From NCBI RefSeq assembly GCF_002280675.1, contig NZ_NCEN01000002.1:1-64000 (forward strand): DNA of 64,000 nucleotides, read 5' to 3'. The notes under the pieces were generated by a model. That model ran no database searches, was not told the DNA's origin, and saw nothing but the letters and a program-made list of their open reading frames with translations. The DNA is from Novosphingobium sp. 32-60-15 (GTDB lineage Bacteria > Pseudomonadota > Alphaproteobacteria > Sphingomonadales > Sphingomonadaceae). Below are positions 18,277-53,494 of the stretch, piece after piece. Position numbers and translations under genes: made by a program. Every line of letters begins with the position of its first letter. Position 1 is the first letter of the stretch.

Positions 18277-18342
18277 ATTCGGTGATTCGAGAAATGAGGC
18301 GACCAGCGTGAAATGCTGGCGCCCTTACATGGGAGGGAAATG

Positions 18343-20640
18343 ATGAAAGCGAGACACGCCATTCGTCTGATGTCCGGTCTTTCGGCCTTGGCATTTGTTG
18401 CCGCGCCGACGTTCGCCGGGGCGCAAGAGGCGCAGGCCGAAGCCACTACGGGCGGCATCGGCGAAATCATCGTCACAGCGCAAAAGAAGGCCGAGAGCAT
18501 CCAGTCGGTGCCGATCTCGATTGCAGCGGTTAGCGGCGAACAGCTTTCAGCCATGAACGTGACCACGTTGCAGGCGCTGCAAGGTTCGGTTCCCAACGTG
18601 CAGATCGATAACTTTGCCAATACGCCCAACAATGCGGTGTTCACCATTCGCGGCATCGGCGTGATCGAACCCGATCCTTATGCCGGCAACACCGTGTCGA
18701 TCGTGGTCGATGGCGTGCCGCAGTTCTTCTCGATGGGCGCGCTGCTTGATACTTATGACACGGGCCGCGTTGAAATCTTGCGCGGGCCGCAGGGCACGTT
18801 GTTTGGTGCAAACACCACAGGCGGCGTTGTCAACGTCGTGACGAACCAGCCCACCGGCGAATTTGGCGGTTATCTGCGCGGCACATATGGCAACTGGAAC
18901 CGGTTTGATGTGAACGCTTCTATCGAAGCGCCGCTGGTTAAAGATGTCGTCAGCCTGAAAGTTTCGGGCATTCACACGCAGCGCGATGGCTGGGTAACGA
19001 ACGTCTGGAATGGCGAGGACATGGGCAGCAAGAACGTGGACGCGGTGCGCGGCCAGTTGCGCATCACGCCCAATTCCGATCTGACGGTCACGCTTCAGGG
19101 TGAATATGTGGCCGCACGCAATGGTGCGCCGGTTGTCGTCAACGGCGGTTTGCCCGGCGAGGCGAATTACGTTCCCGAAGGCACGTTCTGGAACGGTGCC
19201 AAGCTGCCGATGTATCGCAGCCCGTGCGCCGTGCCGAACCAGCCCTGCGTTGCGCCTGACGAATATTTCTCGGGCAACAACGAAGTGCCTGACCAGTCGG
19301 ACATGACGACCAAGTTCTTTATCGGCACGATCCAGTACGACAATACCGCGCTGGGCGATATTACGGCGATCACCGGCTACAAGCGTTTCACCCTGTTCGA
19401 ATATACTGATCAGGATGGCACCGCGAAAACCAACAACGCCACGCGCCGCCGCACGCAGGGCTGGCAGTTCAGCCAGGAACTGCGCAGTTCCTTCGATGTG
19501 GGTGATAGCTTCAATGCCGTGGCCGGTCTGTTTTACCTCAAGACGGACTATAACCACTACCAGATGTACCATCTGGACTTCGCGCTGCCAGGGTTGATCC
19601 AGTACAATGTGCAGGATCAGGGCACGGAATCGTTCTCGGCGTTTGTCCAGACTTATACCCAGCTGACCGACCGGTTGAAGCTTTCGGCAGGCATCCGCTA
19701 TACGCATGACAAGATCGATGCGCGCTCAACGCTCGACACCGGGCTTGGCAGTGAAGCGCTGACATCGGCGCAGTGGGACAAGTTCGATGTGGTGTTCCCC
19801 GGCAGCCTTGATGTGGGCGGCAAGAAAAGCTGGAACAATGTCGGCTGGAAAATCGGGCTTGATTACGAACTGGCGCAGAACCAGTTGCTTTATGCAAGCT
19901 GGGCGCGCGGGTTCAAATCGGGCGGCTTTACGGGCCGTATCGGTGTGGCAGCAGATGGCGACACGCCTTATGGTCCGGAAAAGGTCGATACATTCGAAGC
20001 CGGTCTGAAGGCCGACTTCTTTGACCGCCGTGTCCGCGCCAACGTGTCGGTGTTCTACACCAACTATCGCGACATGCAGGTTGCGCAGATCTATTTCGAT
20101 CCTGACACCAACGTGCAGGGCAACCGCATTCTCAATGCGGCGCAATCTGAAATCAAAGGCTTCGAGCTGGAAATGCAGGCCGTGCCGGTTGAAGGCCTGA
20201 CGCTGCGCGGATCGCTTGCCTACCTGGATACGAAGTACAAGAACTTCCTGTATTTCGATCCGGTAGCGGCGGCCACACTCGATCTGGAAGGCTTTGCCTT
20301 GCAGAATGCGCCGCGCTGGGCATCGACATTGGGCGCAAACTTTACCACGCAATTGCCCAATGACAGCAGCATCGTGGCCGATGTCAGCTGGATGTATACC
20401 GCATCGAAGTTCTACACCGCCGTGGTCAACACCCCGCGTTCGACCATCCAGCCCACGTACTATGTCGATGCGCTGCTGACATATTACGGGCCGGACAAGA
20501 AGTATTCGATCGGCCTGTGGGGCAAGAACCTGTTCGACAAGCGTTACATCTCGACCGTCTATGACAGCCCCGGTTACATGGGTCTGGTCGGCTACGCCCC
20601 GCCACGCCAGTTCGGCGTTTCGGCAGGCTTCAACTTCTGA
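18343..20640 (+). CDS. TonB-dependent outer-membrane receptor
   Basis: A receptor of about 765 residues. It has a signal peptide (MKARHAIRLMSGLSALAFVAAPTFAGAQ), a TonB-box-like EIIVTAQKKAESIQSVPISI, a plug domain (VEILRGPQGTLFGANTTGGVVNVVT) and a long beta-barrel ending in the aromatic PPRQFGVSAGFNF. It would import a scarce or bulky substrate across the outer membrane with TonB energy. ATG at 18343 is preferred because GGAGG is 6 bases upstream; ATG at 18340 is in frame. A strong intrinsic terminator follows at 20657. Position among oxygenase and dehydrogenase genes, with a shared operator-like motif upstream, points to uptake of the pathway substrate rather than of iron. Confidence 0.92.
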   Translation: MKARHAIRLMSGLSALAFVAAPTFAGAQEAQAEATTGGIGEIIVTAQKKAESIQSVPISIAAVSGEQLSAMNVTTLQALQGSVPNVQIDNFANTPNNAVFTIRGIGVIEPDPYAGNTVSIVVDGVPQFFSMGALLDTYDTGRVEILRGPQGTLFGANTTGGVVNVVTNQPTGEFGGYLRGTYGNWNRFDVNASIEAPLVKDVVSLKVSGIHTQRDGWVTNVWNGEDMGSKNVDAVRGQLRITPNSDLTVTLQGEYVAARNGAPVVVNGGLPGEANYVPEGTFWNGAKLPMYRSPCAVPNQPCVAPDEYFSGNNEVPDQSDMTTKFFIGTIQYDNTALGDITAITGYKRFTLFEYTDQDGTAKTNNATRRRTQGWQFSQELRSSFDVGDSFNAVAGLFYLKTDYNHYQMYHLDFALPGLIQYNVQDQGTESFSAFVQTYTQLTDRLKLSAGIRYTHDKIDARSTLDTGLGSEALTSAQWDKFDVVFPGSLDVGGKKSWNNVGWKIGLDYELAQNQLLYASWARGFKSGGFTGRIGVAADGDTPYGPEKVDTFEAGLKADFFDRRVRANVSVFYTNYRDMQVAQIYFDPDTNVQGNRILNAAQSEIKGFELEMQAVPVEGLTLRGSLAYLDTKYKNFLYFDPVAAATLDLEGFALQNAPRWASTLGANFTTQLPNDSSIVADVSWMYTASKFYTAVVNTPRSTIQPTYYVDALLTYYGPDKKYSIGLWGKNLFDKRYISTVYDSPGYMGLVGYAPPRQFGVSAGFNF

Positions 20641-20723: not shown

Positions 20724-20818
20724 CGTCATTGCGAGGAGGCGAAGCCGACGAAGCAATCCAGAGGCGTTACACACCGCTCTGGATTGCTTCTCCCCGCTTC
20801 ACGGGGCTCGCAATGACG
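20724..20818. repeat. Dispersed palindromic repeat, family 1, copy B (95 bp)
   Basis: Starts CGTCATTGCGAG and ends CTCGCAATGACG, with inner arms GAAGCAATCCAGAG and CTCTGGATTGCTTC. It is close to the reverse complement of copy C at 29926-30020, so the two are inserted in opposite orientations. It lies between the receptor terminator and the double NTF2-like gene. Confidence 0.85.
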
Positions 20819-27927: not shown

Positions 27928-27960
27928 AAACAAAAGTTTGCCCGAGAGGATTTGACGCCC

Positions 27961-28395
27961 ATGCAGTGCCCGATTGAAGACCGGTTCGCGATACAGGACC
28001 TTATGATCGCTTATGCCCACGCAGTGGATACGGTGAGCGACATTGACGCCGTGCTTGATGTGTTCACGCCCGATGCGGTGTTCGATCTTTCAGGCATCGG
28101 CCTGACGCCGCAAGTGGGGCACGCGGGCATTCGCGAATTCTTCACCAATGTTTTCGCCAATATGACGCACCATGCGCATTACCTGACCAACTTTGCGGTG
28201 ACCGCCTACGCCGGTGATACCGCCACGATGCGCGCTTATGTCATCGGCATGGGTGTGGGCAAGGATGGCAGCACGGTGACGGTGAATGGGCGCTATTACT
28301 TTGACGTTGTCCGCACCGATGCTGGCTGGAAAGCCACGCGCTATACCATGGACTTCCTGATGCCGCTGACCGGCACTTTGGAAAACGCCAAATAA
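27961..28395 (+). CDS. NTF2-like (SnoaL-type) protein
   Basis: A 144-residue SnoaL-like protein (MQCPIEDRFAIQDLMIAYAHAVDTVSDIDAVLDVFTPDAVFDLSGIG, then GRYYFDVVRTDAGWKATRYTMDFLMPLTG). It fits the fold of ketosteroid-isomerase-like enzymes and dehydratases. It is last of the operon started by the class A oxygenase at 24081. An AGAGGA site is 8-13 bases before ATG 27961; a TTG at 27952 is also possible. Downstream, a small hairpin (28454-28469) and a separate ribosome site lead into the next oxygenase, which may be a continuation of the same transcript. Confidence 0.8.
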   Translation: MQCPIEDRFAIQDLMIAYAHAVDTVSDIDAVLDVFTPDAVFDLSGIGLTPQVGHAGIREFFTNVFANMTHHAHYLTNFAVTAYAGDTATMRAYVIGMGVGKDGSTVTVNGRYYFDVVRTDAGWKATRYTMDFLMPLTGTLENAK

Positions 28396-28469: not shown

Positions 28470-28515
28470 GGGGATGAAGCACTGCGCCTAAGCCGCGCTA
28501 CATATGAGGCCCATC

Positions 28516-29862
28516 ATGGCGACATATATCGAAGTTCCCAATCCGCAGGCGAGCTATCCGACCCATCCCGATGCGCAGTTCCCGCAGGCGCGCGGCGATG
28601 CGATTACGGGCGACCGGTACTGGTGCAAGGATTTTTCCCGCCGCGAGTGGGACAAGATGTGGACGCGCATCTGGCATGTGGGCGGCCGCGCGGCGCAGTT
28701 GGAAGAGGCAGGCGATTTCATCACGCACAACTTCATGCGCCAGTCGGTCATGATGGTGCGCCAGAAGGACGGCAGCATCCGCGCCTTTCACAACGTCTGC
28801 CGCCATCGCGGCAACCGGCTGGTCGGCGTGTCGGAAGGCGGGGTGACCGATCACTTTACCTGCCCGTATCACGGCTGGAAATGGAACATCGACGGCGCGC
28901 TGGACCATGTGCAGGACGAGGAGGATTTCCCCCAAGGATCGCCATGCGAAAAATTGCGCCTGAAAGAAGTGCCGTGCGAAACATGGGGCGGGTTTGTCTT
29001 CTACAGCTTTGATCCCAATGCCGTGCCGTTGCAGGAATATCTGCATCCGGTGCCGGCGTTGCTGGCCAACCGCGATCTGGCCAACTGGAAGCGCGTTGTC
29101 TGGCGCACGCTGCGGGTGAACACCAACTGGAAGTTTGCGTCCGACAACTTCAACGAAGCCTATCACATCCCGGCGGTGCATCCGCAGTTCGAAGGGATGA
29201 TCGACGATCACTATTCGACCACCGTGTTCGAAATGTACCCCACCGGGCACAACCGCATGATCGAGAAGCTGCAACCATCAAGCCGCTATCCCGATGCGCA
29301 GCAGATGAAGCCGCTGTGGGCGCAAGTCCTGGCCGAATGGGATCTTGATCCGGCAGCGTTTGAAGGCCGTGCGCAAGAAGCGCGCATCGCCTTGCAGCAG
29401 GCGCGGCGTACGCTGGGGCCGCAGCGCGGCTTTGCCCACTTTGACAAACTGACCGATGACGAACTGACCGACCAGTTCCACCACACCTGCTTCCCCAACC
29501 TGACGCTGACCGGGACACCCGAAGGTCTGCACGTGTTCCGCACCGAACCCGATATGGAAGACCCCAACTGGTCCACGTTCGATTACTGGTATCTGGCACC
29601 GGAAGTGGCAGGCGGCGCTGATGTGCCGACGCTCTATGGCTTGCGTCCGTGGCAGGAAGCCGAACACCAGACCGGCGATTTTGCGGCCTATACCGCCGAA
29701 ATTCCGCAGGGCGATTTCCTGATTCAGGATCTGGAAGTGGCGGTGACGCAGCAGCAGGGCCTGCATTCGCTGGGCCATGATCAAGCCTATCTTGCCGGAC
29801 AGGAAACGCGCGTCGGGCGCTTTCATGAAGTGATCAACGATTACCTTGAAGGGCGGCGTTGA
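28516..29862 (+). CDS. Rieske non-haem iron oxygenase alpha subunit, class B (448 aa)
   Basis: A second class B oxygenase alpha chain. Rieske ligands are Cys95, His97, Cys116 and His119 (CRHRGNRL...TCPYHGWKW). The iron site is Glu214, His217 and His222 (NEAYHIPAVHPQF). The N-terminus (GDAITGDRYWCKDFSRREWDKMWTRIWHVGG) and C-terminus (EVAVTQQQGLHSLGHDQAYLAGQETRVGRFHEVINDY) align well with the gene at 26051. The ATG at 28516 has GAGG 7 bases upstream; an ATG at 28504 is less likely. It is followed by a palindromic repeat (copy C) and then the Tat flavoprotein gene. Substrate unknown; pairs of class B oxygenases suggest successive hydroxylations of related positions. Confidence 0.92.
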   Translation: MATYIEVPNPQASYPTHPDAQFPQARGDAITGDRYWCKDFSRREWDKMWTRIWHVGGRAAQLEEAGDFITHNFMRQSVMMVRQKDGSIRAFHNVCRHRGNRLVGVSEGGVTDHFTCPYHGWKWNIDGALDHVQDEEDFPQGSPCEKLRLKEVPCETWGGFVFYSFDPNAVPLQEYLHPVPALLANRDLANWKRVVWRTLRVNTNWKFASDNFNEAYHIPAVHPQFEGMIDDHYSTTVFEMYPTGHNRMIEKLQPSSRYPDAQQMKPLWAQVLAEWDLDPAAFEGRAQEARIALQQARRTLGPQRGFAHFDKLTDDELTDQFHHTCFPNLTLTGTPEGLHVFRTEPDMEDPNWSTFDYWYLAPEVAGGADVPTLYGLRPWQEAEHQTGDFAAYTAEIPQGDFLIQDLEVAVTQQQGLHSLGHDQAYLAGQETRVGRFHEVINDYLEGRR

Positions 29863-29925
29863 GGCGATCGGCCGATACCATGAAATAATCGGGATTATGT
29901 TGTTCGCAAATACGACCCTTACTTT

Positions 29926-30020
29926 CGTCATTGCGAGCCCCGCGAAGCGGGGAGAAGCAATCCAGAGCGGTGTGTAACAACTCTGGATTGCTTCGTCGGC
30001 TCCGCCTCCTCGCAATGACG
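29926..30020. repeat. Dispersed palindromic repeat, family 1, copy C (95 bp)
   Basis: Begins CGTCATTGCGAG and ends CTCGCAATGACG with inner arms GAAGCAATCCAGAG and CTCTGGATTGCTTC. Reverse-complemented it nearly equals copy B; several differences are paired across the stem, as expected for a structure kept by selection. It lies between the class B oxygenase and the flavoprotein gene. Confidence 0.85.
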
Positions 30021-30074
30021 AAGTGATGTTTGCAAACGACACAAGCGCCAAAATGACAACGGGAGAACTTTCCA

Positions 30075-31832
30075 ATGACTGAAAAGACCACCAAGGTTGG
30101 CCGCCGTCAGGTTCTGGCAGGTGCTGGTATTGCGGCAGCCGCCGCCGCATCGGGCGGAATTGCCACTGCGGCGCGCGCGGCAGATGCACCGGCAGCGGCA
30201 GGATCATCGTCAACCTGGGATCACGAATGTGACCTGTTGTGCATTGGCAGCGGCGCGGCTGCGGGTACGGCGGCGGTCACCGCGCTGGCCGCCGGGGCCA
30301 AAGTGATGATGGTTGAAAAGATGCCCATTCTTGGCGGCACCACCGCCAAATCGGGCGGCGTGACATGGGTGTTCAATCACTTCATTTTCCGCGAACAGGG
30401 CATTGCCGATCCCAAGGCCGATGCACTGCGCTATACCGTGCGTTATGGCTATCCGCGCCAGTACAATCCCGACAGCCCGACGCTGGGCCTTGATGAAAAC
30501 CGCTTCCGCGTGGTTGAGGCGTTCTACGATCATGGATCGGCGGCGGTGGACCATTTGCGCGCATTGGACGCGGTGCAGTTCAAGCAGTTCCGCCTGTTTC
30601 AGGTGGACAAGCCCGCGCCCGATTATGCCGACCATCTGCCCGAAAACAAGGTGCCGACAGGCCGCGCATTGGAACCGGCGGTCGGGTCTGGATCATCGCA
30701 GGGCGGCGGCAGCCTTGCCAGCCAGATGCACGCTTATCTGAAGGCCAAGGCCGTGCCGATCTTGACGCGCACCCGCGTGACGCGCGTGATCAAGGACGCA
30801 TCGGGCCGCGTGATTGGCGCAGAAGCGGTGCAGGGCGACAAGACGCTGCGCATCAAGGCCAACAAGGGCGTGGTGTTCGGCACCGGCGGTTACAGCCACA
30901 ATGTGCAATTGTGCGATGTGCACCAGCCAGCGGTTTACGGATCATGCTCGACGCCGGGATCGACCGGCGATTTCATCCCGATTGCGCAGGAAGCTGGCGC
31001 GATGATGGGCAATCTGGGGCTGGGCTGGCGCACGCAAGTGGTGCTGGGCGAGGCGTTGAAGACCCGCGCCATCGGCCTTGGTGCATTTGTGCTGCCGGGC
31101 GATTCCATGATCCTTGTCAACAAATACGGCAAACGCGTGGTCAACGAAAAGCGCGATTACAATGACCGCACGCAAGCGCATTTCAGCTATGATCCGGCGC
31201 ATGAGGAATATCCCAACCACCTGATGTTCATGCTGTTTGACGAACGCAGCATCGATGCTTTCGGCGGCGCATTCCCGTTCCCTGCCAACAAGGCCGAACA
31301 GCCGCACCTTATTGAAGGGATGAGCTGGGACGAAGTGTTCACCAAGATTGATGCACAACTGGCCGAGTGGACCGGCCGCACCGGCGGCGCGCGGCTTGCG
31401 AGCGAATTTGCGGGCAATGCCAAACAGACGATCAGCAATTTCAACGCTTATGCCAAAAAGGGTGTCGATCCTGAATTCGGGCGCGGCAAGTATCTGTATG
31501 ACCGCGAATGGCACTTGCTGTTTTCGGCCCGTCGCGCCGGCACGACCCAGCCCGAAAACCCGCATCCCAACAATACGATGCACCCGTTCGCGCCCAAGGG
31601 GCCATATTATGCGATCATCCTTGCGCCGGGCACGCTCGACACCGCAGGCGGGCCACAGATCAACGCCAATGCGCAAGTGCTGGCGGCAAACGGACAGCCG
31701 ATCCCCGGCCTATATGCTGCGGGCAATTGCATTTCTGCACCCACCGGCCAGGCCTATCTGGGCGCAGGCGGCACGATCGGTCCGGCTGTGACCTTCGGCT
31801 ATATCGCGGCAAACCATGCGGTGAAGGCATGA
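30075..31832 (+). CDS. Tat-exported FAD-dependent dehydrogenase (KstD/fumarate reductase-like)
   Basis: A 585-residue flavoprotein of the FAD_binding_2 family. The N-terminus GRRQVLAGAGIAAAAAASGGIATAARA is a twin-arginine signal, so the mature enzyme is periplasmic. After it the FAD motif is CIGSGAAAGTAAVTALAAGAKVMMVEK, and the C-terminal family block is GQPIPGLYAAGNCISAPTGQAYLGAGGTIGPAVTFGYIAANHAV. Relatives include 3-ketosteroid dehydrogenases, flavocytochrome c and fumarate reductases. An exported member next to a cytochrome c-like lipoprotein suggests dehydrogenation in the periplasm with electrons passing to a cytochrome. The stop overlaps the next gene's start (ATGA), a strong sign of partnership. 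GGGAGAAC precedes the ATG. Confidence 0.88.
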   Translation: MTEKTTKVGRRQVLAGAGIAAAAAASGGIATAARAADAPAAAGSSSTWDHECDLLCIGSGAAAGTAAVTALAAGAKVMMVEKMPILGGTTAKSGGVTWVFNHFIFREQGIADPKADALRYTVRYGYPRQYNPDSPTLGLDENRFRVVEAFYDHGSAAVDHLRALDAVQFKQFRLFQVDKPAPDYADHLPENKVPTGRALEPAVGSGSSQGGGSLASQMHAYLKAKAVPILTRTRVTRVIKDASGRVIGAEAVQGDKTLRIKANKGVVFGTGGYSHNVQLCDVHQPAVYGSCSTPGSTGDFIPIAQEAGAMMGNLGLGWRTQVVLGEALKTRAIGLGAFVLPGDSMILVNKYGKRVVNEKRDYNDRTQAHFSYDPAHEEYPNHLMFMLFDERSIDAFGGAFPFPANKAEQPHLIEGMSWDEVFTKIDAQLAEWTGRTGGARLASEFAGNAKQTISNFNAYAKKGVDPEFGRGKYLYDREWHLLFSARRAGTTQPENPHPNNTMHPFAPKGPYYAIILAPGTLDTAGGPQINANAQVLAANGQPIPGLYAAGNCISAPTGQAYLGAGGTIGPAVTFGYIAANHAVKA

Positions 31833-32242
31833 GGCGTATTGCCCTTGGCGGCGCGGCGTTGCTGGCTGCTGCGTGCAGCGCGCAGGCCGAAGTGGCGGCG
31901 GTTCCCGCTGCCTCGGTTGCAGTTTCCTATCAGGCGGACATCGTGCCGCTGCTCGAAAGCCAGTGCGCCACTTGTCATCTGACGGGTGAGGAAGCGGGCG
32001 GCATGTCGCTGGTGGGCGATGTGGCGCGTGATTTCCTGGTCGGCAAACCATCGCAGGAAGCACCCGCCATCATGCGTGTGGTGGCAGGCAATCCTGATGC
32101 CAGCTATCTGGTAATGAAGCTGGAAGGCACGCATCTGGCCAATGGCGGATCGGGCGGGCAAATGCCGTTCGGCGCGCCGCCTTTACCCCCTGAACAGATC
32201 ACCAAAGTCCGCCAGTGGATTGCGGAGGGAGCAAAACCGTGA
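31829..32242 (+). CDS. Cytochrome c-like lipoprotein (CxxCH)
   Basis: A 137-residue exported protein. The signal MRRIALGGAALLAAACSAQA ends in a lipobox-like LLAAAC, so it is probably a lipid-anchored protein. The mature part has one haem c-binding motif, CATCH (from ESQCATCHLTGEEAGG), and a likely distal Met in GGQMPFG, as in small mono-haem or planctomycete-type cytochrome c domains. It starts in the stop codon of the Tat flavoprotein gene and its stop overlaps the GTG start of the next SDR, so all three are translationally coupled. The likely job is to accept electrons from the flavoprotein and pass them to the respiratory chain, which is inferred. Confidence 0.85.
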   Translation: MRRIALGGAALLAAACSAQAEVAAVPAASVAVSYQADIVPLLESQCATCHLTGEEAGGMSLVGDVARDFLVGKPSQEAPAIMRVVAGNPDASYLVMKLEGTHLANGGSGGQMPFGAPPLPPEQITKVRQWIAEGAKP

Positions 32243-33015
32243 ACGCCAATCTTGTGAACCTTGCCGGAAAAGTCGCCATCGTCACCGGCGCGGGCGTTGG
32301 CATGGGCGCGGCAACCGCGCGCCTGCTGGCAGCGCGCGGGGCCGAAGTCATCGTATCGGACATCAACGATGAAACTGGCGCTGAAACGGTTGCTGCGATC
32401 AGGGCTGATGGCGGCACGGCGCATTTCGTCATGGCCAACGTGGCTGACGAAGCGCAAGTCGAGGCGCTGGTGGCGCAAACCGTTGCCACGTACGGGCGGC
32501 TTGATTGCGCGGTGAACAATGCCGCGATTACGCCCGACATCCTGCCCATCCACGAAGCGGATATGGCGGTGTTTGATCGTGTGCTGAATGTCGATCTGCG
32601 CTCGGTCATGTTGTGCATGAAGTATGAAATCCGGCAGTTGCTGGCGCAGGGCTCTGCCGGTTCCATCGTCAATATCGGGTCGGTCAGCTCATTCCGGCCC
32701 CAGCCCAACAACGCGGCTTATGTTGCGGCAAAGCACGGCGTCATCGGCCTGACCAAGACCGGCAGCCTTGAATATGCCGGCCGCAATATCCGCGTGAACG
32801 CAGTGCTGCCCGGTGCGATTGATACGCCGATGCTGCGCGGCGCGCTGGAAACCACCGGCTTTACCGAAGCAGACTTTGCCCCCGCGCTCAGCCTGTTCGG
32901 GCGCTTCGGACGGCCTGAAGAAGTGGCCGAAGCCAGCGCGTGGCTGTGTTCGGACGCATCAAGCTATGTCACCGGCCACAGTCTGGCGGTTGAGGGGGGT
33001 TATCTGACGCGGTAA
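32239..33015 (+). CDS. Short-chain dehydrogenase/reductase (SDR)
   Basis: A 258-residue classical SDR with VTGAGVGMG, NNAAIT, IVNIGSVSSFRP, YVAAKHGVIG and the C-terminal TGHSLAVEGGYLTR. It starts with GTG at 32239 inside the end of the cytochrome gene, behind a strong GGAGGGAG site. Being cytoplasmic while its two coupled neighbours are exported, it could carry out the reaction before or after the periplasmic dehydrogenation, or simply share expression. The substrate is not readable. The operon ends here, followed by a family 2 repeat. Confidence 0.88.
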   Translation: MNANLVNLAGKVAIVTGAGVGMGAATARLLAARGAEVIVSDINDETGAETVAAIRADGGTAHFVMANVADEAQVEALVAQTVATYGRLDCAVNNAAITPDILPIHEADMAVFDRVLNVDLRSVMLCMKYEIRQLLAQGSAGSIVNIGSVSSFRPQPNNAAYVAAKHGVIGLTKTGSLEYAGRNIRVNAVLPGAIDTPMLRGALETTGFTEADFAPALSLFGRFGRPEEVAEASAWLCSDASSYVTGHSLAVEGGYLTR

Positions 33016-37452: not shown

Positions 37453-38928
37453 TCAGCCCCAGTTTGCCCCGGCGGCATGGCGCCCGGCACGACGGCCGAA
37501 ATAGCTGCCCGGCCCGAGGCTGAGGCCGCTGGCATAGGCTTTGCCGGTGCGCGGGATGTGTGCCGCGCTTGCGCCTACAACGTAGAGGCCCGGAACCACG
37601 TTCGAATGCAGGTCCAGCGCGCGGCCCAGCGCGTCTGTCTTGATCCCGCCCAGCGTGATGAACAGGTAGTGCGATTTGTCAAAGCTGATGTCGAAGGCGG
37701 CATATGGCCCCTGATCGAGCGGCTTGATCCAGTCAGGGTGCTTGTGAAAGCGCGAATCCTGTCCCTTGGCGGCATCGGCATTGTAAGTGCGCATGGTTTG
37801 CACCAGTGATCCGGCGGGCAGGCCAAGGCCCGCTTCCATTTCCTCGACCGTTTCCCAACCATCGACCAGCGTATGCTTGGCCAGCGGGTTTTCGGGATAG
37901 GCAAAGATTTCGCTGTCAACGATCAGGTATGCCGTCTGGCCCGGTTGCTCCATCACAAAGTTGCCAAGGCGGCCGTGATAGACATCCTCGCTGACAAAGC
38001 GTTCGCCGTTGCGGTTGATGACGATGCCCTTGATCAGCTGGCCGGGCGGATAGATTGACGCGGTGGGGATCACCCCGTCCATCGCCACGGCATGTGCGCC
38101 CGCCGAAAGGCCAAGGCGCACGCCCGCGCCGTCGTTGCTGGGTATGCCAAGCGGTTCGCTGGTTTCGGTCAAAAGCGGCAAGTGCTGTTTGATCAGCGGT
38201 TCGCACATGTTGTGGCTGCCGCACGCCACGATCACCCCGCGCCGCGCCTTGATAAACAGTTCCGCGCCCGGTTGCTTCACCTTGACGCCGATAACCCTGC
38301 CATCAGCCTCGTCCTGCACCAGTGCGATGACCGCGCTGTCGTAAATGGCGGCAATGCCTTCGGCCTCGCAGCGTTCCAGCAGCGGCTTCATGCCTGCCGA
38401 TCCGGCATTTTCGCCCACGCCTGCAACTTTGTGGCCACGCGGGGCGGGACGGGCGGCTTCGCGATAAGGCCACGCCTTTTCGTTCCCGGTCCACATCAGG
38501 CACGTGGTGTCTTCCAGCCAGACCGCTTTGCCGGGGAAGTATGTGCGCTCGAACGGGACGCCTTGCGCTTCGAGCCAGTCGAAGTGGTCCTTGCAGTCGT
38601 TGGCGAAGGCAATCGCGGCATTCGGATCGAGCGGATCGCAGCTGGCCAGCAGGAAGGCGGCGAGCTGTTCGGCATCATCATCATAGCCTGCGGCCTGTTG
38701 CACAGCAGTGCCACCGCCCAGATACCAGATGCCCGATGACAGCGCGCTTGCGCCACCGCCGCCTGAGGCACGTTCAATGATCAGCACTTTTGCGCCCGCG
38801 CGATGGGCCTCAAGCGCGGCACAAGTGCCGGCGGCGCCTTGGCCCGCGACGACAACGTCAACTTCCTCGTCCCACTGTGCAACATCGGCAGGGCGGATCA
38901 CGGCCGGAATATCAGCATTTTGCGTCAT
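37453..38928 (-). CDS. FAD-dependent dehydrogenase (FAD_binding_2, KstD-like), cytoplasmic
   Basis: A 491-residue flavoprotein without signal peptide. The FAD motif is VVVAGQGAAGTCAALEAHRAGAKVLIIER, followed by a GGGGASALSSGIWYLGGG segment, and the C-terminal block LDLHSNVVPGLYVVGASAAHIPRTGKAYASGLSLGPGSYFGRRAGR. This is the layout of 3-ketosteroid dehydrogenases and related ring-desaturating enzymes. It differs from the exported enzyme at 30075 in having no export signal and being shorter. It follows an SDR gene by 4 bases, so they share an operon. Likely introduces a C-C double bond in a ring ketone, as in Delta1- or Delta4-type dehydrogenation, inferred from family only. Confidence 0.88.
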   Translation of the reverse strand: MTQNADIPAVIRPADVAQWDEEVDVVVAGQGAAGTCAALEAHRAGAKVLIIERASGGGGASALSSGIWYLGGGTAVQQAAGYDDDAEQLAAFLLASCDPLDPNAAIAFANDCKDHFDWLEAQGVPFERTYFPGKAVWLEDTTCLMWTGNEKAWPYREAARPAPRGHKVAGVGENAGSAGMKPLLERCEAEGIAAIYDSAVIALVQDEADGRVIGVKVKQPGAELFIKARRGVIVACGSHNMCEPLIKQHLPLLTETSEPLGIPSNDGAGVRLGLSAGAHAVAMDGVIPTASIYPPGQLIKGIVINRNGERFVSEDVYHGRLGNFVMEQPGQTAYLIVDSEIFAYPENPLAKHTLVDGWETVEEMEAGLGLPAGSLVQTMRTYNADAAKGQDSRFHKHPDWIKPLDQGPYAAFDISFDKSHYLFITLGGIKTDALGRALDLHSNVVPGLYVVGASAAHIPRTGKAYASGLSLGPGSYFGRRAGRHAAGANWG

Positions 38929-45856: not shown

Positions 45857-45868
45857 GAAATGAGGCGA
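45857..45868 (+). promoter_or_regulatory. Shared 12-mer upstream of TonB receptor
   Basis: GAAATGAGGCGA, 25-36 bases before the receptor start, is identical to 18291-18302 upstream of the first receptor. Whether it is a promoter part, a regulator site or chance is unknown. Confidence 0.25.
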
Positions 45869-45892
45869 GGCGACCCATCAGGGAGGATACCG

Positions 45893-48220
45893 ATGAAAGC
45901 CCATACTACGCGGCATATGCTTGCCGTTGCATTGTCCACAACCGCGCTTGGTCTGGCTATGCCTGCCTACGCTGCGGACGGACCCCAGGACGCGGCACAG
46001 GCCGATACTGTAAGCGAAGCGCCTGCCGAAACCGGCGCGATCATCGTCACCGCGCGTCGCCGTTCGGAAACGCTGCAATCAACGCCAGTGGCAATCACCG
46101 CCGTCAACACCGCGATGCTCGAAGCCAAGGCCGCCGTAAACATCGGCGATCTGCAAGGCGCGGCACCGGGCCTGTTGATCACACAACAGAATTCAGGCGC
46201 ACAAGCAGCCAACATTTCCATTCGCGGCCTGACGTACGCCGACATTGAAAAGTCGCAGACGCCAACTGTTGGCGTGCTGGTAGACGGCGTGGTGATTGGC
46301 ACCAACACCGGCCAGTTGCAGGACGCATTCGACATTGCCCAGCTTGAAGTCCTGCGCGGCCCGCAAGGCACGCTGTTCGGTGCCAACACCATCGGCGGCG
46401 TTATCAGCATCACCCGTTCAAAGCCGACGATGCAGCCGGGCCTCAAGGCCGAGGTGACGTATGGCCGGTTCAACTCGCTGGCGGTCAAGGCGATTGCCAA
46501 TTACGGCGATGGTGACACGTGGGGCGTCAAGGCGTTCTATTTCCACAACGAAACCGACGGCTTTTACAACAACGTCATCCAGGGCAAGAATGGCGGTTGG
46601 AGCAAGGGCGACACATACGGCGGATCATTGCTGTTCAAGCCCGCCGGCACCGGTTTTGAAGCCCAGTTCACCATCGAAAACGTCAAGCAGAAGTTCGATC
46701 CGGTGGTGGCCAACATCACCAATAGCAGCGAAGTATTCTGCGGCTTCATCGCCACGCGCGAATGCAACCGCAACACCACCAGCGACTTGTACACCGTGTT
46801 CAGCGCGCCTGCTGAAAGCACGTACAGCGCGCCTGATGCGACGCTGGAACTGAACTATGATCTGGACGCGGTAAAGCTGACCTCGATCACGGGCTGGCGC
46901 AAGAGCACCGAAGCCCAGACGCAGGATTTCGACGGTTCATCGACCGATCTTTACTATGTTGACCGTCGCCAGCACTACGAACAGTGGAGCCAGGAAATCC
47001 GCGCTGCGGGTGAAATGTTTGACGGTTTCGATTACGTGGTTGGCGCATTCTACTTCAAATCGAAGTACGATCTGACCCAATGGAGCCGCGTATTCGGCTT
47101 CAGCCCGAACACTCCGCCCACCACGTTTGACCTCAATTCACAGCATGTTGAAGGTGAAACCGAAAGCTATGCGTTCTTCGGTGACTTCAACTGGGCATTG
47201 ACCGATACCGTACGTCTGGCATTCGGTGGCCGGTGGAGCCATGACAACAAGCAGCTGTTCAACGGTTTTGCCGGTGGCAAGCTGATTGATCCGAACACTG
47301 TCCAGCGCAGCCAGTATGTGCCGGTGGGTACAGGCAACGCCAATTTCAGCAAGTTCACGCCAAAGGTAGGCATTGACTGGCGGCCCAGCAACGACGTGAT
47401 GGTCTATGCATCATGGTCGCGCGGCTATCGTTCGGGCGGCTTCAGCCCGCGCGCTGCAACCGCTGCAACCGCCAGCACGCCATTCCAGCCGGAAACGGTT
47501 GATTCGTATGAAGTCGGTGCAAAGTTCTCTGCCCTCGACAACCGTCTGGAAGTGAACATTGCAGGCTTCGTGTCCGATTATAAGGACATGCAGCAGAACC
47601 TGACCCTGCCCGGCGGCCCCACCGGCAACCAGACAGTGACCGGCAACGTGGCTGGTGGCGCGTTGATCAAGGGCGTCGAACTTGACGGTTCGCTGCGCAT
47701 TACCGACAATCTGCGCCTTACCGGATCGCTGGCAGTGCTGGATTCAAAGTTCCGCAACTTCGTGGCCAATGGCGTATTCGGAACGGCCATCGTGCCCTTC
47801 GATTATTCGGCAAACCGTCTGATCTACGCGCCTGATTTCACTGCTTCGCTGGGTGCAGAATATACCCAGCCCACCAGCTTTGGCGATATTTCGGCAAATC
47901 TGGGCTGGCGCCACATCACGCCATACGACCAGCAGTTGTCGGCAGCATCGCTGACGCCAACGACTGTGGGCGGCAACGTGACGAAGGTTACGGTCAACGG
48001 CAACGATCCGCGCGTGCGCACAACCACGCAGGACCTGATCGATGCCAGCCTTACCTTCAACTTCGATCTGAACAACACCAAGGCCTATGTCCGCGTGTTC
48101 GGACGCAACCTTGGCAATGAGCGCACATCGACTCACGCATTCACCGTGGCGGGCCTGTGGTCCTTTGCCATGGCGCTTGAGCCACGCACGTATGGCGCGA
48201 CGATCGGCTTCAAATACTGA
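45893..48220 (+). CDS. TonB-dependent outer-membrane receptor
   Basis: A 775-residue receptor with signal peptide (MKAHTTRHMLAVALSTTALGLAMPAYAA), a TonB-box-like AIIVTARRRSETLQSTPVAITAV, a plug with VLRGPQGTLFGANTIGGVISIT, and a barrel ending in EPRTYGATIGFKY. The barrel has the repeating alternating strands and terminal aromatic expected for outer-membrane insertion. It is the first gene of an operon with an SDR gene (48320) on the plus strand, divergent from an MDR-SDR operon, so substrate import and its first oxidation may be made together. GGGAGGA precedes the ATG. It is clearly different from the receptors at 18.3 and 51.0 kb. Confidence 0.92.
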   Translation: MKAHTTRHMLAVALSTTALGLAMPAYAADGPQDAAQADTVSEAPAETGAIIVTARRRSETLQSTPVAITAVNTAMLEAKAAVNIGDLQGAAPGLLITQQNSGAQAANISIRGLTYADIEKSQTPTVGVLVDGVVIGTNTGQLQDAFDIAQLEVLRGPQGTLFGANTIGGVISITRSKPTMQPGLKAEVTYGRFNSLAVKAIANYGDGDTWGVKAFYFHNETDGFYNNVIQGKNGGWSKGDTYGGSLLFKPAGTGFEAQFTIENVKQKFDPVVANITNSSEVFCGFIATRECNRNTTSDLYTVFSAPAESTYSAPDATLELNYDLDAVKLTSITGWRKSTEAQTQDFDGSSTDLYYVDRRQHYEQWSQEIRAAGEMFDGFDYVVGAFYFKSKYDLTQWSRVFGFSPNTPPTTFDLNSQHVEGETESYAFFGDFNWALTDTVRLAFGGRWSHDNKQLFNGFAGGKLIDPNTVQRSQYVPVGTGNANFSKFTPKVGIDWRPSNDVMVYASWSRGYRSGGFSPRAATAATASTPFQPETVDSYEVGAKFSALDNRLEVNIAGFVSDYKDMQQNLTLPGGPTGNQTVTGNVAGGALIKGVELDGSLRITDNLRLTGSLAVLDSKFRNFVANGVFGTAIVPFDYSANRLIYAPDFTASLGAEYTQPTSFGDISANLGWRHITPYDQQLSAASLTPTTVGGNVTKVTVNGNDPRVRTTTQDLIDASLTFNFDLNNTKAYVRVFGRNLGNERTSTHAFTVAGLWSFAMALEPRTYGATIGFKY

Positions 48221-50954: not shown

Positions 50955-51040
50955 TCGATTAGTGAGGCGTCGTTTGCGATGCGAAAAACTAAAGCCGTGC
51001 GCGATAAACGGTTGTGATAAAATTTACGGGAGGAACAACG

Positions 51041-53494
51041 ATGCGTTCACTTAAAAAGCTTTTGTTGGCAACGTGCGCACTAAGCGCTGCCACACCGGCA
51101 TTTGCCCAAGACGCAGCGCAAGATGGGGCCAGCGCAGGCGGACTTGAAGAAATCATCGTAACCGCACGCAAGCGCGAAGAATCGGTCCAGACGGTGCCGG
51201 TTGCGGTCACCGCCATTTCCGAACGCGTCATCCAGCAGCGCGATATTACCAGCATCGAAAAGATCGCAGGCGCAACGCCGAACCTTTCGGTCGGTCGTGC
51301 TTCAAACGGTTCGGGCGCGCAGCTGACGATGCGCGGCATCGGTTCGTCATCAACCTCGATCGGTATCGAACAGTCGGTCGCTGTGGTTGTCGATGGCGCC
51401 TATTATGGCCAGGGCCGCGTCATTCAGGAAGGCTTCTTCGATCTCAAGCGCGTTGAAGTGCTCAAAGGTCCGCAGGCGCTGTTCTTCGGCAAGAACGCCA
51501 CCGCTGGCGTGATTTCGCTGACCACCAACGATCCGGGCCAGGACCGCGAATTCATCGCGCGTGCCGGTTACGAATTCCGCTCGCAGCAATACCTTGGCGA
51601 ATTTATCGCGTCGGTTCCGCTGTCCGATACCTTTGGCGTGCGCCTTGCCGTGCGCGGTTCGATGATGGACAAGGGCTATTACCGCAACGTATCGGTCAAC
51701 CGCACTTATACCACACTCGACATCCAGAACCTGCTGACCGGCGGTGCGGGCAATCCTGTTGGCCATCTTGCTTTGCCTGCTGCTGCCAATGCGCCGGGCG
51801 AAGATGAACTGCTGGGCCGCATCACCTTGAAGTACACGCCGGACGACAAGCTGACCGTGACGGTCAAGGGCATGTTCGATCACAACGAAGTGAACAACTC
51901 GTCGTGGAATTATGTGGCGTACAATTGCGGCAACGCAAACGGCATCAGCCAGTTGACCGGCTATGCTTGCGGCACGGATTTCGTCACCAATCAAAACAAC
52001 ATGCCGGCTGATATTGCCGCCAACTTCCCGTTCGCAAAGAGCGATGGCGCGCTTTACAACCGCTATCGGTCATGGGCGCTGAACGGCAATATCACTTATG
52101 CCGTCAACGATAACCTGACGATCAGCTCGGTTACCAATTACAACACCAACAACAACCGCTGGGCCTGCGCCTGCGATTTCCAATCAAGCAACAACGGCAC
52201 GTGGGCGACGGAAAATTCCACATGGCGCGCGTTCTCGCAGGAACTGCGTGCGCAGACTGCGTTCGATGGGCCAATCAACCTGATGGTTGGCGGCCTGTAC
52301 CAGAAGACCAAGCGCGAATTTGCACAGTATGTGATGTTCGCAGGCCTGCGCGACGATGCAGCATCGGCGGCAAACCGCTATGTCGCCTCGTCCAAGACCA
52401 GCTTCACCGATGGTGAAACCACCGCTCTGTTCGGTCAGGTAACATGGGAAATCGTTGACCGGCTCGAACTGGCAGGCGGCGTGCGCTACACGCATGAAAC
52501 CAAGGACAGCTATTTCACGCAGCCTTACAACAACATCGGCGTGCAGGGCATCTTCCGTGACAAGGCTGATCCGGATGGCCAGGGCGAAATCACCGCGCAG
52601 CAAACCTTCAACGACTGGTCGCCTGAAGTCACGCTGACGTGGAAGCCGGTTGATGACGTGCTGGTCTATGGTGCGTACAAGACGGCCTATAAGTCGGGCG
52701 GTTTCTCGAACGGCGGTATCAACTCTAAGTTCTCGGCTGATCCGCTGGCCGATCTGACCTTCAACCCTGAAAAGGCGCGCGGGTTTGAATTCGGTATCAA
52801 GTCAACCGTTCTGGACAACCAGTTGCGCCTGAACCTTGGCCTGTTCAGCTATGCCTATGATGATTTGCAGGTCGATTTCTTCAACTCGCCGATCTTCGCC
52901 TTCCAGACGCTGACCGCCGATGCGCGCACCAAGGGCATCGAAGTTGAATTCGAATATGCACCGCGCAGCCTTGATGGTCTGAACGTGCATGGTTCGGTCA
53001 ATTACACTCACGCCCGCTACACCAACTTCCCCTCGGCACCATGCTATGCAGGCCAGACACCTGCACAGGGCTGCACGCTGGTGGCCGGTGCTCCGCGCCA
53101 GAACCTGAATGGCAAGCCATTGTCGGTTGCGCCTGAATGGACCGGCGCTTTCGGCATCGGTTATGATGCGGCAATGGGCAACGGCATGAAGCTGGGTCTC
53201 AATGTCGATACGCGCTATTCCGGCGCTTATCTCGCATCGGGCTTCGGCAATCCGTTCTCTGAACAAAGCAAATATGCCGTGCTTGATGCCGGTATCCGTT
53301 TTGGCGCAGAAGACGATAACTGGCAGATCGCGCTAATCGGCAAGAACCTGACCAACCGCTTCTTCGTAAGCGGTGTGGTTGATGGCCCGTCGACCGGTGG
53401 CGGCACCGGAACGCCAGCAGGCATCCGCGCCGACCAGCTGGGCTTCGGCAACCTGCCACGCACCGTGCAGGTAACGGTGACCAAGCGCTTCTGA
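51041..53494 (+). CDS. TonB-dependent outer-membrane receptor
   Basis: An 817-residue receptor, the largest of the three. It has a signal peptide (MRSLKKLLLATCALSAATPAFAQ), a TonB-box-like EIIVTARKREESVQTVPVAVTAI, a plug segment VEVLKGPQALFFGKNATAGVISLTT, and a barrel ending in NLPRTVQVTVTKRF. GGGAGGA precedes the ATG. It is followed by a strong intrinsic terminator. The conserved plug text is typical of sphingomonad receptors that import aromatic or lipid substrates. It stands alone on the plus strand, divergent from the MDR-ThuA operon and convergent with the SDR-VOC-ferredoxin-NTF2 operon. Confidence 0.92.
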   Translation: MRSLKKLLLATCALSAATPAFAQDAAQDGASAGGLEEIIVTARKREESVQTVPVAVTAISERVIQQRDITSIEKIAGATPNLSVGRASNGSGAQLTMRGIGSSSTSIGIEQSVAVVVDGAYYGQGRVIQEGFFDLKRVEVLKGPQALFFGKNATAGVISLTTNDPGQDREFIARAGYEFRSQQYLGEFIASVPLSDTFGVRLAVRGSMMDKGYYRNVSVNRTYTTLDIQNLLTGGAGNPVGHLALPAAANAPGEDELLGRITLKYTPDDKLTVTVKGMFDHNEVNNSSWNYVAYNCGNANGISQLTGYACGTDFVTNQNNMPADIAANFPFAKSDGALYNRYRSWALNGNITYAVNDNLTISSVTNYNTNNNRWACACDFQSSNNGTWATENSTWRAFSQELRAQTAFDGPINLMVGGLYQKTKREFAQYVMFAGLRDDAASAANRYVASSKTSFTDGETTALFGQVTWEIVDRLELAGGVRYTHETKDSYFTQPYNNIGVQGIFRDKADPDGQGEITAQQTFNDWSPEVTLTWKPVDDVLVYGAYKTAYKSGGFSNGGINSKFSADPLADLTFNPEKARGFEFGIKSTVLDNQLRLNLGLFSYAYDDLQVDFFNSPIFAFQTLTADARTKGIEVEFEYAPRSLDGLNVHGSVNYTHARYTNFPSAPCYAGQTPAQGCTLVAGAPRQNLNGKPLSVAPEWTGAFGIGYDAAMGNGMKLGLNVDTRYSGAYLASGFGNPFSEQSKYAVLDAGIRFGAEDDNWQIALIGKNLTNRFFVSGVVDGPSTGGGTGTPAGIRADQLGFGNLPRTVQVTVTKRF

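Follow-up and report, generated by a model that had tools for sequence, protein, structure and literature searches.

A stretch of 64,000 nucleotides from Novosphingobium sp. 32-60-15 (assembly GCF_002280675.1, contig NZ_NCEN01000002.1, positions 1 to 64,000; the whole stretch is called the window here) carries a flavoprotein gene that overlaps the gene of a small c-type cytochrome. From sequence comparisons and predicted structures we consider it probable (about 0.8) that the flavoprotein is a periplasmic alpha,beta-desaturase of ring ketones and that the cytochrome is its own dedicated electron acceptor. The related desaturases, such as cyclohexanone dehydrogenase (CDH) and 3-oxosteroid 1-dehydrogenase (KstD), are measured with artificial dyes, and it is poorly settled which electron acceptors they use in nature. 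The conserved gene pair points to a specific candidate acceptor for the whole desaturase branch. If ketones are desaturated in the periplasm, the electrons could pass straight into the respiratory chain, with bulky hydrophobic ketones kept from the cytoplasm.

The coding block consists of the following features:

30075..31832, + strand: Tat-leader FAD_binding_2 flavoprotein, predicted CDH/KstD-type ketone alpha,beta-desaturase (ATG 30075, TGA 31832, 585 aa)
30075..30179, + strand: twin-arginine leader of the flavoprotein, GRRQVLAG...ATAARA, with the RR motif
31829..32242, + strand: monohaem CxxCH protein, predicted c-type cytochrome (ATG 31829, TGA 32242, 137 aa)
32239..33015, + strand: predicted cytoplasmic dehydrogenase of the short-chain dehydrogenase/reductase (SDR) family (GTG 32239, TAA 33015, 258 aa)

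An earlier reading of this DNA from its letters and open reading frames (the preliminary description) had placed these genes at these positions and had called both junctions translationally coupled. This holds: the cytochrome starts inside the flavoprotein stop codon (4-nt overlap, ATGA) and the SDR inside the cytochrome stop codon (4-nt overlap, GTGA). The SDR is, as described, coupled and of the cytoplasmic type (no leader), but it is optional in other loci and thus no fixed member of the block.

Recurrence of the gene pair

A genome scan with a five-sequence flavoprotein alignment gave 79 loci in alpha-, beta- and gammaproteobacteria, four of which stop too early for the presence of a cytochrome to be judged. 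The two-gene block is found in 50 of them, with the cytochrome directly after the flavoprotein, and 32 of these have the same 4-nt overlap. They come from Novosphingobium, Sphingobium, Croceicoccus, Thauera, Zoogloea, Aromatoleum, Azoarcus, Massilia, Pseudomonas and further gammaproteobacteria. Among 150 genomes of the same genus the flavoprotein occurs in 15, always as a single copy and always with a single adjacent cytochrome (15/15). Of the 11 close flavoproteins (at least 57% identity) in a sample of 299 genomes from the family, 10 have it as well. It is confirmed that the pairing recurs beyond chance. Apparent fused flavocytochromes in L046, L050, L055 and other loci are artefacts, as open frames run long in GC-rich DNA; with the real start they become separate proteins. 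No relative was found in the viral contigs searched. One further genome of the genus has the cytochrome (G116; L109, 5500-5792). Here the flavoprotein has lost an internal part in frame, so that leader and C-terminus remain, with cytochrome and SDR intact; this is either a knock-out of natural origin or a collapse in the assembly.

A proposed exchange of the electron carrier among relatives

The strongest argument for the cytochrome as electron acceptor is that the type of the coupled carrier follows the compartment across lineages. Four CDH orthologues (58-64% to CDH), from Caballeronia NK8, Paraburkholderia PGU19 and two further genomes of a betaproteobacterial family, combine a twin-arginine translocation (Tat) leader with an overlapping or adjacent PF00034 cytochrome, which belongs to another family than that of the window. 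The neighbourhood of CDH was read from these orthologues, the Alicycliphilus K601 genome not being among the 393 sampled. The Rhodococcus flavoproteins (L118, L119, L121) lack a Tat leader, and a ferredoxin gene follows them with an overlap; Rieske and NTF2 genes lie upstream, like in the window. The flavoproteins of anaerobic bacteria and archaea (Clostridiales and Methanomassiliicoccaceae) likewise have no leader and carry one to three N-terminal rubredoxin-like domains, with up to three in tandem before the FAD domain in the clostridial L096, L101 and L103. Judging by these gene arrangements, one-electron carriers of different ancestry fill the same slot in each lineage, matching the compartment. 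It seems somewhat probable that, within the KstD-like desaturases, the CDH branch has evolved through exchange of its dedicated one-electron carrier per compartment, and that the native acceptor of CDH would be a periplasmic cytochrome c. Such exchange would provide redox partners ready for use in the biocatalytic desaturation of ring ketones.

The flavoprotein active site

Pfam assigns PF00890 (FAD_binding_2) to the whole flavoprotein (residues 53-567, E 2e-50). The closest solved sequences are the CDH entries 8am8, 8am3 and 8am6 (best E 2e-107, all about 1e-107; 38% identity to CDH in the alignment), with KstD far behind at E 5e-39 and weaker. The AlphaFold model has a mean confidence score (pLDDT) of 85, with the leader disordered, and its best fold match is again CDH (TM-score 0.84/0.92). 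KstD comes second (about 0.73/0.8), followed by urocanate reductase and flavocytochrome c (the latter 0.58). In CDH, Tyr195, Tyr376, Tyr570 and Gly574 are catalytic, and Trp113, Leu530 and Phe352 form a hydrophobic pocket (PMC10966990). The catalytic residues align to Y184, Y362, Y561 and G565 of the window protein, a quartet without variation among the 81 sequences compared, and the pocket residues W113/L530/F352 align to V96/L521/F338. The tryptophan at the gate (W113) is restricted to CDH and its orthologues in NK8 and PGU19, V being usual elsewhere in the same 81 sequences. By this gate the window protein does not fall under CDH in the strict sense, having V96 at this position. The cut-offs of the NCBIfam equivalogs for 3-oxosteroid 1-dehydrogenase are also far off (NF009478, 245.7 against 789 bits; NF005882, 213 against 788). 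The KstD-like label of the preliminary description is therefore right for the fold, the catalytic logic and the ketone-desaturase type of active site, but the nearest characterised relative is CDH and not the steroid enzyme.

By its residues the active site is of the ketone desaturase type and not of the fumarate reductase type. Fumarate reductase has different active-site residues. This bears on the possibility that the pair runs reductively, the cytochrome feeding the flavoprotein and an enone being reduced, like flavocytochrome c fumarate reductase, urocanate reductase and Eggerthella Cgr1/Cgr2. These systems share the flavoprotein superfamily, a haem partner and, in some, Tat export. Modules of a Tat-exported flavoprotein and a cytochrome are well known for reduction, Cgr1/Cgr2 being the reductive mirror image of the present pair (PMC5953540). 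The window protein also scores 160.4 bits with the flavocytochrome c family TIGR01813, but this is below the cut-off of 285.45, and no CxxCH occurs within its own chain. The known reductases use multihaem donors and are structurally less similar to it than CDH is. The full set of CDH desaturase residues, a partner that is a small monohaem protein and not a quinol oxidase of the NapC type, and the oxygenase-rich catabolic surroundings make a reductive role improbable.

Export signals and the cytochrome family

The flavoprotein N-terminus begins MTEKTTKVGRRQVLAGAGIAAAAAASGG, and the leader reads MTEKTTKVGRRQVLAGAGIAAAAAASGGIATAARA. Because of this twin-arginine leader, we infer that the flavoprotein is exported by Tat. 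The call combines the RR motif, a mildly hydrophobic stretch and conservation among relatives: all 49 cytochrome-linked flavoproteins whose N-terminus could be read have an RR/Tat leader, and two relatives exceed the 16.7-bit cut-off of the Tat-signal model TIGR01409 (L050 with 24.2, L117 with 23.2).

The cytochrome (N-terminus MRRIALGGAALLAAACSAQAEV) has one CxxCH motif, CATCH at residues 46-50. In 51 aligned cytochromes C46, C49, H50, V71, S92, Y93, K97, G107, G109, M112, P113, W130, G134 and A135 are invariant, and since Met112 is among them it is the likely sixth (axial) haem ligand. At the sequence level the protein has what a c-type cytochrome needs, that is, CxxCH, a conserved candidate sixth ligand and an export signal. 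Hydrophobic signal sequences are present throughout the 51. In the window the signal offers a lipobox-like AAAC or an alternative signal peptidase I site. A lipobox-like Cys occurs in 16/51, including the window protein, and the remainder have ordinary signal peptides, so a lipoprotein anchor was discarded as a defining trait. The lipoprotein-like signal of the preliminary description is there, although ambiguous, but it does not extend to the family.

For the mature part the structure is predicted with confidence, with block pLDDT values of 94 to 99 from residue 31. Searches by profile and by fold show weak similarity to FoxE, to the haem domain of the hydrazine synthase alpha subunit and to PSCyt1 (Planctomycete cytochrome C, PF07635), with distant PDB matches. 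These likenesses are below family cut-offs and the functions of those proteins differ. PSCyt1 matches 5/42 cytochrome members (best E 0.0016), the window cytochrome not among them. In the 150 genomes of the same genus the cytochrome profile matches 16 genomes, all near 1e-50 and with one copy each, and nothing lies between ~1e-50 and the 1e-6 limit. Because of this empty gap the cytochrome appears, in the genus sample, to be a small and sharply bounded family. Novosphingobium aromaticivorans DSM 12444 has orthologues of flavoprotein and cytochrome on pNL2, SARO_RS18575 and SARO_RS18580, and current pipelines annotate the latter as a hypothetical protein.

How the pair may work

The flavoprotein would fold with FAD in the cytoplasm and then be exported by Tat. 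In the periplasm, Tyr362/Tyr184 would remove the alpha-proton of the ketone, with Tyr561 and the backbone of Gly565 holding the carbonyl oxygen, and hydride would pass from the beta-carbon to N5 of FAD, the mechanism put forward for cyclohexanone dehydrogenase. Reoxidation of the flavin would take two one-electron steps, to two cytochromes of the co-translated monohaem kind (His50/Met112), which would deliver the electrons to a cytochrome c oxidase. The host genome encodes TatC, cytochrome c assembly proteins and two haem-copper oxidases. We infer each of these steps, from export and haem loading to ketone desaturation, flavin-to-haem transfer and delivery to the terminal oxidase. It is more speculative that the bulky cyclic ketone would enter by TonB-dependent receptors of the same cluster, and that SDR and Rieske enzymes would carry out later steps in the cytoplasm. 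The preliminary description had suggested dehydrogenation in the periplasm with electrons leaving through the cytochrome. It is the best-supported reading, with the desaturase active site, the universal Tat leader in cytochrome-linked members and the change of carrier in leaderless relatives.

Some observations weigh against it. The leader of the window flavoprotein itself is below the TIGR01409 threshold. A minority of the relatives with a Tat leader lack the neighbouring cytochrome (e.g. L041, L054, L061, L090, the Aromatoleum aromaticum EbN1 plasmid 2 and G451, the last being the one close flavoprotein of the family sample without it). In G405 (L110, 5517-5846) an orphan cytochrome adjoins a Rieske gene, with no such flavoprotein in the 11 kb examined. 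The partnership is therefore not absolute. In favour of a partnership, the pairwise distances of flavoproteins and cytochromes correlate (r 0.82 in 49 pairs; permuted maximum 0.26), but this is a raw correlation with no control for species history. The EbN1 relative (L115, 105-1877; about 57%) lies on a conjugative plasmid, has a Tat leader and is followed by acyl-CoA dehydrogenase genes.

The relatives without a cytochrome would also fit a flavoprotein that uses quinone, O2 or a general carrier, the cytochrome serving another enzyme of the cluster and the adjacency reflecting shared regulation. About half of the Tat-bearing relatives without a visible carrier have a lipobox-like Cys behind the Tat motif and may thus be membrane-associated, and vitamin K2 has been suggested as the natural acceptor of KstD (PMC5385177). 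We hold this to be about as improbable as the reductive role: a small protein, where one is coupled to the flavoprotein, is a one-electron carrier whose type follows the compartment, and the cytochrome is the most constant neighbour tested (50 loci, against a Rieske relative in 31/45 gene-rich loci). A vestigial or uncleaved leader on a flavoprotein that, as ordinary KstD enzymes do, acts in the cytoplasm is very unlikely, for although crystallised CDH was active from E. coli with its N-terminal extension kept behind a His-tag (PMC10966990), and the window leader scores low, the RR and hydrophobic leader is found in all 49 readable cytochrome-linked relatives and in none of those bearing ferredoxin or rubredoxin.

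Relation to known systems

Both the chemistry of CDH and the pairing of flavoproteins with cytochromes are established. The open-access papers searched gave no description of their combination, of the cytochrome family or of the exchange of carriers. A full-text search, where absence is weak evidence as it covered open-access papers only, gave no KstD or CDH module with periplasm and cytochrome c. The preliminary description, which named no well described catabolic module of this form but did not exclude one, agrees with this outcome. CDH itself (EC 1.3.99.14, Alicycliphilus denitrificans K601, 8AM3/8AM6/8AM8) shares the predicted fold, the catalytic quartet and an RR-type N-terminal leader, and differs in the gate residue (W113 there, V96 here) and in that its orthologues adjoin a cytochrome of another family. 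The CDH structure paper used DCPIP (2,6-dichlorophenolindophenol) as acceptor, and its main text is silent on signal, periplasm, Tat and cytochrome (PMC10966990). KstD (4C3X, 7P18) shares fold, catalytic logic and ketone alpha,beta-desaturation at about 27% identity in the structural match; no cytochrome partner of KstD was reported in the papers searched.

The closest wiring is that of NicA2/Pnao and CycN in Pseudomonas putida S16, also a case of catabolic flavoprotein dehydrogenases with a dedicated operonic cytochrome c and predicted export. NicA2 and Pnao depend on their operon partner CycN, all of them predicted to be periplasmic, and CycN exceeds O2 50- to 230-fold in the rate at which it oxidises the flavin of Pnao (PMC9396064). 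The likeness is one of wiring alone, as these enzymes have a flavin amine oxidoreductase fold and oxidise C-N bonds, whereas the window protein has FAD_binding_2 and would desaturate ketones. In a Novosphingobium lignan pathway, PinV, a cytochrome c6, is listed beside the oxidase PinW (PMC12997858).

Substrate and gene cluster

A likely substrate would be larger than cyclohexanone, perhaps a cyclic ketone of the terpenoid or steroid-like type. The W113A variant of CDH takes a bulkier ring, dihydrocoumarin (PMC10966990), and V96 at the same gate therefore suggests a larger substrate. A second FAD_binding_2 protein about 5 kb from the pair (37456-38928, - strand) is KstD4-like, its closest solved relative being 4AT0, a 3-ketosteroid delta4-(5alpha)-dehydrogenase (E 4e-97), and close relatives of this gene are near the pair in L034, L058, L069, L070 and L098; polycyclic 3-ketones therefore stay candidate substrates. 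A steroid-only reading was dropped, since the KstD equivalog cut-offs were not reached and no complete steroid pathway was present in the gene blocks examined. Steroids, which the preliminary description implied, are thus only one candidate class, with CDH nearer than KstD. In Caballeronia NK8 the CDH-type pair adjoins genes of hydroxyquinol dioxygenase and maleylacetate reductase, which suggests that in this case the ring is aromatised. DUF1302 and DUF1329 genes occur near the pair in several loci of betaproteobacteria and Pseudomonas, and YCF48-like and MMPL genes in some, all of them usual company of hydrophobic-substrate catabolism.

The cluster in the window contains Rieske oxygenases, SDRs, a P450, SnoaL/NTF2 proteins, an AMP ligase and TonB receptors; a large part of it has counterparts in SARO_RS18525-18585 on pNL2. 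It is a dense catabolic island with at least seven Rieske alpha subunits and three TonB-dependent receptors (18313-20640, 45860-48220, 51014-53494) in 64 kb. Two of its genes lie upstream of the pair:

28504..29862, + strand: Rieske non-haem iron oxygenase alpha subunit, upstream of the flavoprotein
27952..28395, + strand: SnoaL/NTF2-like protein, upstream of the Rieske gene

Hairpin-forming inverted repeats lie between the Rieske gene and the flavoprotein (29924-30022), and therefore the three genes from flavoprotein to SDR may be transcribed as a unit of their own, apart from the Rieske gene. A 20-nt piece of this intergenic repeat has an exact second copy at 20744-20763 on the opposite strand.

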